Shown piece by piece: positions 46,721-49,917 of a DNA stretch of 64,000 nucleotides. Numbering within the stretch: position 1 is the first letter of the stretch; every line of letters begins with the position of its first letter. The stretch is from Paracoccaceae bacterium. GTDB lineage: Bacteria; Pseudomonadota; Alphaproteobacteria; Rhodobacterales; Rhodobacteraceae. A program made the position numbers and the translations under genes. Below the pieces are notes generated by a model that had not been told where the DNA came from, did not search any database, and was given only the letters and a program-made list of their open reading frames with translations. The stretch spans positions 22,124-86,123 of the forward strand of contig WOZM01000272.1 of NCBI GenBank assembly GCA_011620265.1. The letters run 5' to 3'.

Positions 46721-47613
46721 GACGGAACGGCCTGCTTCCTGCCCTTTTGGCGGTGATGTCCTTCGGCGGCGCGGCCCTGGCCGAGCCGCTGGCGAACCAG
46801 CTCTTCGGCGCGACGAAAGTGGCGTCGCGGCAGGCGCCGGCGGCGATCGGCACATATGCCAAGGGCTGCGGCGCGGGCTTCGTCGAGCTCCCCGAAAGCG
46901 GGCCGACCTGGCAGGCGATGCGGCTTTCCCGCAACCGCAACTGGGGCCATCCGGCGCTTGTGCAGTTCGTGGCCGACCTCTCGGCCACCGCGCGCCAGCT
47001 CGGCTGGCCGGGCCTTTATATCGGCGACATGAGCCAGCCGCGCGGCGGGCCAATGACGAGCGGTCACGCCAGCCACCAGATCGGCCTTGATGCCGATATC
47101 TGGATGCTGCCGCCGCATCGGCTGAACCTCAGCCGGGGCGAGCGCGAGAGGATCAGCTCGGTCTCGGTCCGCACCGACGACCAGAGGCGCGTGAACGGCA
47201 ACTGGACCGCGACCCATTACCAGTTGATGCGCGCCGCCGCCTCCGATCCCCGGGTCGACCGGATCTTCGTCGCCGCCGCCGTGAAGGTCGAGATGTGCAA
47301 GACCGCGCGCGGAGCGGACAAGGCATGGCTGCAGAAGATCCGGCCGCTCTACGGGCACAACACCCATTTCCATGTCCGGCTGAAATGCCCTGCCGGCTCG
47401 CGCAACTGCGAGACCCAGACCCCGACCGTCGCCGAATTGTCGAAAGGCGGGGATGGCTGCGACGAGTCGCTGACCTGGTGGGTCACGACCTATCTTGACG
47501 AGCTGAAGAACCCGCCGAAGACCAAGCCCAAGGGGCCGCGCAAGAGGACGCCGCGCGAGTTCACGATGGCCGACCTGCCCAGACAATGCTCCGCCGTCCT
47601 GACCTCGGACTGA
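46717..47613 (+). CDS. mepA: Penicillin-insensitive murein endopeptidase MepA
   Basis: GDMSQPRGGPMTSGHASHQIGLDADIWM; HNTHFHVRLKCPAGS; putative TTG start. Confidence 0.92.
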   Translation: MRRNGLLPALLAVMSFGGAALAEPLANQLFGATKVASRQAPAAIGTYAKGCGAGFVELPESGPTWQAMRLSRNRNWGHPALVQFVADLSATARQLGWPGLYIGDMSQPRGGPMTSGHASHQIGLDADIWMLPPHRLNLSRGERERISSVSVRTDDQRRVNGNWTATHYQLMRAAASDPRVDRIFVAAAVKVEMCKTARGADKAWLQKIRPLYGHNTHFHVRLKCPAGSRNCETQTPTVAELSKGGDGCDESLTWWVTTYLDELKNPPKTKPKGPRKRTPREFTMADLPRQCSAVLTSD

Positions 47614-48569: not shown

Positions 48570-49193
48570 ATGACCCGAAATCTGATCCCTGGCATCCTTG
48601 CCATGGCCGCCATCGTGGTGGCCTCGAACATCCTCGTGCAGTTCCTGTTCGGCCAGTGGCTGACCTGGGGCGCCTTCACCTATCCCTTCGCCTTCCTTGT
48701 CACCGACCTCACGAACCGCCTTCAGGGGCCCGCCGCCGCGCGCAAGGTCGTCGTCGCGGGCTTCGTCGTCGGCGTGATCTCTTCGCTCATCGGCACCCGG
48801 ATCATCGGCGAATTCGGCCCGCTGGTGACGCTCCGCATCGCCATCGGCTCCGGCCTCGCCTTCCTCGTGGCGCAGTTGATGGACGTCTCGGTCTTCAACC
48901 GCCTGCGGGAGGGAAGCTGGTGGCGGGCGCCGCTCGTCTCGACCCTGATCGGCGCATCGCTCGACACCGCGATCTTCTTCTCCGTCGCGTTCTCCGCCGC
49001 GCTGAGCTTCGTCGAACCGGCCAATGACGTGGGCTGGGCGGGCGAGGTCCTGCCGCTTCTCGGCATCGGTCCCGTCGTCCCGCTCTGGGTGTCGCTCGCG
49101 AGCGCCGACTGGCTCGTCAAGCTGTCGCTCGCAATTGTGGCACTCGTGCCGTTCAGGGTAATTGTTTCAAAGTTGACAGCAAAAGTTGCGTAA
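48570..49193 (+). CDS. VUT family / queuosine precursor transporter-like protein
   Basis: WLTWGAFTYPFAFLVTDLTNRLQGPAAARKVV...VFNRLREGSWWRAPLVSTLIGASLDTAIFFSVAF. Confidence 0.88.
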   Translation: MTRNLIPGILAMAAIVVASNILVQFLFGQWLTWGAFTYPFAFLVTDLTNRLQGPAAARKVVVAGFVVGVISSLIGTRIIGEFGPLVTLRIAIGSGLAFLVAQLMDVSVFNRLREGSWWRAPLVSTLIGASLDTAIFFSVAFSAALSFVEPANDVGWAGEVLPLLGIGPVVPLWVSLASADWLVKLSLAIVALVPFRVIVSKLTAKVA

Positions 49194-49263
49194 AAACTTT
49201 TGACAAACACAAAATCTGTGGCAGCCTGTGGATAACGGCAACGCAGAGAAAGGAGGTGATCCA

Positions 49264-49320
49264 GTGTCTAGAGTGATATTGGAGAGAGGTGTCGGGACAG
49301 TCAGGGGGGCCGTGGCCTGA
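49264..49320 (+). CDS. Candidate 18-aa leader peptide VSRVILERGVGTVRGAVA (GTG start)
   Basis: GTG start about 7 nt after GGAGG in an extended perfect SD; 18 sense codons then TGA. Confidence 0.35.
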   Translation: MSRVILERGVGTVRGAVA

Positions 49321-49402
49321 GGGCAAACCCAAGGGCATAGAACCCTGACTGGGCCTCGTCGACTTTCGACACCCTAACTGGCCCATCTCCGTAGATCTCG
49401 GA

Positions 49403-49430
49403 GGGCCGCTCCAACCCGGAGCGGCCCTTT
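49403..49430 (+). terminator. Strong hairpin terminator upstream of arfB
   Basis: GGGCCGCTCC-AACCC-GGAGCGGCCC-TTT perfect 10-bp stem. Confidence 0.75.
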
Positions 49431-49494
49431 CCGTTTGCGATCCCCCGGGGCGTCCACGCTATTCTCGGCGCCGACCCGACCGAAGGCAAAGCCC

Positions 49495-49917
49495 ATGCTG
49501 CATATCACCGACGACATCACGATTGCCGACTGGGAACTGACGGAGAGCTTCATCCGCGCGTCGGGGCCGGGCGGGCAGAACGTCAACAAGGTCTCGACCG
49601 CCGTCGAACTGAGGTTCGAGGCCGAGCGCAGCCCGCATCTGTCCCCCCAGGTCAAGGCGCGGCTGAAGCGGCTGGCCGGACGGCGCTGGACCGCCGAGGG
49701 CGCCATCGTCATCCGCGCCGAGGAAACCCGCAGCCAGGCCCGCAACCGCGAGCTTGCGCGCGAGCGGCTGGCCGAGCTGATCCGCGCCGCGCTCGTGGCA
49801 CCAAAGCGGCGGATCGCGACGCGCCCGACGCTCGGCAGCAAGAAGCGCCGGTTGAAGGCCAAGACCGAACGCGGCACAGTCAAGTCCCTGCGCGGCAAGG
49901 TCGAGGACGAGGATTGA
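49495..49917 (+). CDS. arfB: Alternative ribosome-rescue peptidyl-tRNA hydrolase ArfB
   Basis: SGPGGQNVNKVSTAVELRF GGQ motif; basic C-terminal tail KKRRLKAKTERGTVKSLRGKVEDED. Confidence 0.95.
   Translation: MLHITDDITIADWELTESFIRASGPGGQNVNKVSTAVELRFEAERSPHLSPQVKARLKRLAGRRWTAEGAIVIRAEETRSQARNRELARERLAELIRAALVAPKRRIATRPTLGSKKRRLKAKTERGTVKSLRGKVEDED

Follow-up and report, generated by a model that had tools for sequence, protein, structure and literature searches.

An alphaproteobacterial small RNA with an extended Shine-Dalgarno sequence and a short reading frame, related to Caulobacter CC2171

The RNA locus and its surroundings

In this work we have used sequence comparison to characterise a structured RNA of ~190 nt, closed by a terminator, that occupies positions 49234-49430 on the forward strand of the window (the whole stretch of 64,000 nucleotides analysed) and whose fold has a z-score of -4.3 against shuffled sequences. 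A preliminary description had presented the region as an attenuator-like leader of arfB, and a check of the window sequence recovered every element of that description in its place. The features of the locus are the following:

48570-49193 (+), gene for a Vut_1 family transporter (PF02592)
49200-49227 (+), likely promoter: TTGACA at 49200-49205, a 16-nt spacer and a weak -10-like CAGCCT at 49222-49227
49234-49430 (+), whole RNA, with a putative start (~49234) and its end at the terminator tail; it holds the sub-threshold match to CC2171 (49240-49428) and the conserved block and terminator found in relatives
49247-49264 (+), extended Shine-Dalgarno (SD) sequence AGAAAGGAGGTGATCCAG, with 18 contiguous Watson-Crick pairs to the 3' tail of 16S rRNA
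49252-49258 (+), 5' strand of helix P1, GGAGGTG, within the SD
49260-49283 (+), hairpin P2, TCCAGTGTC/GATATTGGA, which buries the GTG start
49264-49320 (+), ORF of 18 codons, VSRVILERGVGTVRGAVA, from the GTG start to the stop TGA (49318-49320)
49298-49351 (+), stem P4, CAGTCAGGG (49298-49306) with CCCTGACTG (49343-49351), spanning the ORF end and the stop codon
49317-49334 (+), apical hairpin whose 5' arm contains the stop codon; weak at this locus and of 7-9 bp in many relatives
49384-49390 (+), 3' strand of P1, CATCTCC, anti-SD-like and directly before the terminator; many relatives have CACCTCC or CGCCTCC at this place
49403-49431 (+), intrinsic terminator with a 10-bp G+C-rich stem (49403-49427) and a short T tract
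49495-49917 (+), arfB-like gene (RF-1 domain, PF00472), a neighbour and not a conserved part of the RNA

The promoter and the transcription start are both predictions, the -10 having been picked by eye; a promoter scan gave no consensus match at the locus, and TTGACA and the block after it are conserved among relatives of the RNA. A terminator scan reported no terminator with five T at the RNA, whose T tract lies under the T-run threshold of the tool. Within the probable promoter, at 49227-49235 on the reverse strand, there is an exact DnaA box, TTATCCACA, the sole one in the window (0.02 expected) and common only to the closest relatives (L002 and L003), where it may reflect DnaA-linked control or chance.

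Other identities were considered and discarded. A replication origin at the locus was rejected on the lack of a clear GC-skew turn and the restriction of the DnaA box to the closest relatives, and a mobile origin of the RNA on the lack of matches in plasmid or phage records. Neither is the RNA an rRNA fragment or antisense, the shared part being only the 18-nt complement of the 3' tail. Elsewhere in the window we noted a serC leader (RF00517, 25916-25967 (+), 73.5 bits, above the gathering score) and a 95-nt tRNA-Gly(ccc) called by ARAGORN at 46892-46986 (+), which overlaps long open frames and is probably a false positive.

Distribution, relationship to CC2171 and gene context

When Rfam was scanned without a cut-off, one end-to-end match stood out on the strand of the RNA, RF01867 (CC2171), with 34.4 bits and an E-value of 9e-6. 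Since the gathering cut-off of this family is 75 bits, the RNA is, by its score, a relative of CC2171 and not a filed member of RF01867. The preliminary description had not recognised any known family, which needs correcting in that the RNA is a sub-threshold relative of one. Across the class, the CC2171 model matched 61 of 289 genomes, 9 of them above the cut-off. Genomes G112, G370, G377, G343, G139 and G259 each carried two or three such CC2171-like matches, which may be paralogues, as against the one per genome seen elsewhere.

Of 385 alphaproteobacterial genomes, 80 contained the pattern GAAAGGAGGTGRTCNNRTG, with few exceptions as a single copy, while the reversed control gave 0 and the other Pseudomonadota sampled showed no occurrence. 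With a longer pattern and a collection of 85,462 species, 79 among the 80 matches listed were titled alphaproteobacterial or only 'Proteobacteria'. The preliminary description had made its proposal depend on conservation among relatives, and this was borne out: of 101 genomes sampled from the same family, 83 gave a BLAST match to the RNA, and the terminator and part of P4 covary. With the reservation that the locus sets of the different searches overlap, were reduced by identical sequence only and come from unevenly sampled taxa, the RNA appears to be a small RNA gene that is single-copy, normally one per genome, and confined to Alphaproteobacteria. An RNA known only as an uncharacterised Caulobacter sRNA would then have relatives in many lineages of the class. 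One among the 80 matches listed, with the extended SD and a 21-codon ORF (L137, 5050-5070), lies in a MAG labelled Gemmatimonadota and may be contamination or an isolated case. RNA-seq of Mesorhizobium huakuii has detected a relative of the RNA, MH_s33 (PMC5596092), and our literature search found no functional study or experiment on the RNA beyond such detected transcripts of relatives.

The gene context was compared in a Rhodobacteraceae set of 102 loci which, being defined by a Vut_1 neighbour or the peptide pattern, may include a few misassigned members; the Vut_1 gene lies upstream in 98 of them. The proposal that the RNA is an attenuator of arfB is favoured by the fact that an arfB gene follows, always on the same strand, within the retrieved sequence of 80 of these loci. 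It is missing from about a fifth, however, and in at least one of the arfB-less loci the longest downstream ORF is convergent. The congener Defluviimonas denitrificans has no arfB within 3.8 kb downstream, although its copy of the RNA is 94% identical. Among flanks outside the set, an arfB match was seen at two loci only, in a Hyphomonadaceae MAG (L164) and a Rhodobacteraceae MAG (L173), so that the gene is essentially absent beside the RNA in other orders; the neighbours are unrelated between lineages, and some are convergent. The mutually exclusive antiterminator on which the proposal also depended (CTCCG 49387-49391 with CGGAG 49399-49403) is present in the window but forms in only 5 of 62 aligned Rhodobacteraceae rows, and in 3 of 62 in free register. 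Neither a constant downstream gene nor a conserved exclusive antiterminator, as expected of a cis-acting leader-peptide attenuator, was found; a translated short ORF is indicated by comparative statistics only. Given the varying neighbours, the missing arfB in the congener and the rarity of the antiterminator, we conclude that by these comparisons the RNA is a stand-alone gene.

The Shine-Dalgarno sequence, the reading frame and the fold

The SD was first described as a 13-nt complement of 16S rRNA, AAGGAGGTGATCC (49250-49262), followed by a GTG at 49264. Both are present, the 13-mer as one exact copy in the window, and the pairing is in fact longer, with 18 contiguous Watson-Crick pairs, or 19 counting G-U, because alphaproteobacterial 16S rRNA ends in CTGGATCACCTCCTTTCT (tails read from three related genomes, the source assembly having no assembled 16S). 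Complementarity of this extent goes well past what chance would give. The same extended SD also precedes longer ORFs, of 54-57 codons and with signal-peptide-like sequences, at three loci (L068, L088 and L089); these may be ordinary genes for small proteins that have the SD in common with the RNA. The complementarity spans the single-stranded tail and reaches the last bases of 16S, and both forms of an A/G variant, GRUCC, still pair with it (A-U or G-U). This is what would be expected if the RNA paired with 16S for a purpose other than translation, such as maturation of the 16S 3' end or the holding of idle 30S subunits, with the ORF preventing permanent occupation. For pairing alone, however, an ideally spaced start, an open frame and a stop would be needless, and we regard this explanation as improbable.

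The 18-codon ORF of the preliminary description proved to be real. Its length is exactly 18 codons in 99 of the 102 Rhodobacteraceae loci, with the other two frames ending at scattered positions; the start alternates between ATG and GTG, and the stop is TGA in 49, TAG in 41 and TAA in 9 of the 18-codon ORFs. When 98 distinct ORFs were compared, A and G proved about equally frequent at the second and at the third base of the stop, and yet TGG was found 0 times against 20 expected (P 4e-19, sequences taken as independent). The 1666 codons of these ORFs contain 0 in-frame stops, as opposed to 52 and 54 in the other two frames.

A true reading frame is also what a functional micropeptide gene, whose product would be the peptide of 14-26 aa, would show, and some constraint on the peptide was detected: for codons 2-12 in Rhodobacteraceae (SRVILERGVGT) the dN/dS-like ratio is 0.65 vs 0.88-0.94 out of frame, which is mild, and in Bradyrhizobium the sequence ...KRCHLAGIAR is well kept. 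Codons 13-18, however, have a ratio of 1.08, the ORFs of 18 codons from other groups than Rhodobacteraceae (chiefly Sphingomonadales) have ratios of 1.54 and 1.15, neither group thus showing amino-acid constraint, and the peptides look unrelated between lineages, all of which makes a gene for a working micropeptide doubtful. The ORF length goes by lineage, with 14 codons in Bradyrhizobium, 22-23 in Mesorhizobium and its relatives and mostly 20-26 elsewhere. As codons 13-18 are free of amino-acid constraint, selection appears to act on the passage of ribosomes and on a fixed stop, and little or not at all on the peptide. A frame selected for its length and stop position, and hardly for its peptide, would part 'being translated' from 'making a peptide'.

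Over 62 Rhodobacteraceae sequences, none of 500 shuffles and none of the slid versions scores as high as the structure as a whole. The terminator is conserved in 61 of 62 rows, with 8 of 8 main pairs changed on both sides; of the terminator/antiterminator pair first proposed, the 10-bp terminator stem stands and the antiterminator does not. A helix missed in the preliminary description, P1, pairs the SD core GGAGGTG with the CRYCUCC before the terminator in 57 of 62 rows; its pairs vary on one side only, without double-sided covariation, because the SD itself is invariant. P2 has 94.4% of cells paired over the 62 sequences and is part of the minimum-energy fold. The two nested stems proposed earlier fared differently: GGTGTCG (49288-49294) with CGACACC (49367-49373) is present but specific to the window (1 of 62 rows), whereas the CAGTCAGGG/CCCTGACTG stem, our P4, is present and partly conserved, with 5 of 8 pairs of its main helix changed on both sides, although pairing extends to only 68.7% of cells.

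A hairpin tends to enclose the stop codon in Rhodobacteraceae, in Bradyrhizobium and in the 18-codon Sphingomonadales set; for the apical hairpin listed above, the mean over 98 sequences is -8.2 kcal/mol vs -4.1 for shuffles. As a class-wide feature the stop hairpin was rejected, since in the 20-27-codon group it does not rise above chance. In most lineages outside Rhodobacteraceae, the pre-terminator strand is instead the partner of the first codons, at -17.2 kcal/mol vs -11.2 for partners taken from dissimilar relatives.

Possible modes of action and comparison with known systems

We tentatively favour the proposal that this stand-alone, single-copy alphaproteobacterial small RNA serves as a translated mini-mRNA, with ribosome loading as the gate on its structure. 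On capture by the very strong SD, a 30S subunit would open the RNA at the helix between the SD and the anti-SD mimic; one or two ribosomes would travel along the ORF to its fixed stop, their passage holding the RNA open; and with free 30S subunits scarce the RNA would close again. Loading would thus act as a switch between two forms, one closed and one open with ribosomes bound. Through such a switch the RNA could be a sensor or holder of ribosomes, its 3' strand could be exposed to act in trans, or both; the peptide is probably a by-product. A sink for 30S subunits and a stand-alone sRNA, both raised in the preliminary description, may also apply. The 16S complementarity, the start at an ideal distance, the lineage-fixed ORF length, the stop and the terminator, all read from sequence, argue for the mini-mRNA. 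The mild amino-acid bias kept by codons 2-12, the different ORF lengths of the lineages (14, 18 and 20-27 codons) and a stop hairpin not above chance in the 20-27-codon group argue against it, as do intergenic Caulobacter ncRNAs reported as untranslated in the available part of Schrader et al. 2014 (PMC4117421), where the RNA is not named. With this RNA, the idea that ribosome occupancy can shape an RNA could be put to a clean test in manipulable organisms (Rhodobacterales, Caulobacter and rhizobia).

A more specific form of the mini-mRNA proposal, rather unlikely as it stands, is a device that reads out free 30S: the 16S tail and the anti-SD mimic within the RNA would be rivals for a single SD, and the fixed-length ORF, independently of its peptide, would time or limit the open state. 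If true, the RNA would sense translation capacity directly, and would do so widely among Alphaproteobacteria.

A trans-acting, dual-function sRNA is unlikely. Its anti-SD-like or other single-stranded parts would bind mRNAs, and translation would only stabilise the RNA or regulate its availability. A stand-alone gene with a terminator fits this explanation, as does the likeness of the pre-terminator CRYCUCC to anti-SD motifs of known alphaproteobacterial sRNAs (PMC12559287, PMC3927594), but the strand is not anti-SD-like outside Rhodobacteraceae and, the SD itself excepted, no conserved single-stranded seed was seen across lineages. A leader-peptide attenuator of arfB, at most in some Rhodobacteraceae, is very improbable in view of the inconstant linkage and the rare antiterminator.

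Some features of the RNA are found in known systems. Long SD pairing at translation starts occurs in the extended SD motifs of Staphylococcus aureus, which, in the available part of the report (PMC13009471), are a general mRNA feature, whereas here they belong to one dedicated small RNA. The alpha-r8 (MmgR/SisA-D) and CCUCCUCCC-loop sRNAs are also alphaproteobacterial and have anti-SD-like segments; they carry an anti-SD, while the RNA described here has a full-length SD with an ORF. The single-stranded core of alpha-r8/MmgR, UUUCCUCCCU, is absent from 49234-49430, where Rfam gave no match to alpha-r8 or the CCUCCUCCC-loop sRNAs. In the DUF1127 uORF attenuator of Sinorhizobium meliloti (PMC12218461) the ribosome-binding site of the uORF similarly pairs with early codons and reports the translation state, but with a fixed downstream gene and probably Rho-dependent termination, in contrast to a stand-alone RNA with an intrinsic terminator. 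The trp attenuator RNA rnTrpL/peTrpL of the same species (PMC10117765) shares the short ORF, the terminator and the release as a small transcript; its ORF is leaderless and a biosynthetic gene lies downstream, whereas here the SD is extreme and no downstream gene is constant. CC2171 (RF01867), a Caulobacter sRNA of unknown function, has an identical 5' block of 22 nt, GAAAGGAGGUGAUCCAGUGUCU (GAAAGGAGGUGAUCCAGUGUC), a similar length, a G+C-rich 3' terminator hairpin and a model that matches end to end. The score is 34.4 bits against a cut-off of 75, and the ORF, the internal stems and the partner of the pre-terminator strand differ: in CC2171 the pre-terminator GACAAUG pairs with codons 3-5, CAUUGUC, while here the pre-terminator strand pairs with the SD. 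CC2171 is listed in Rfam as an sRNA gene, whereas the RNA described here has a reading frame that appears to be under selection.
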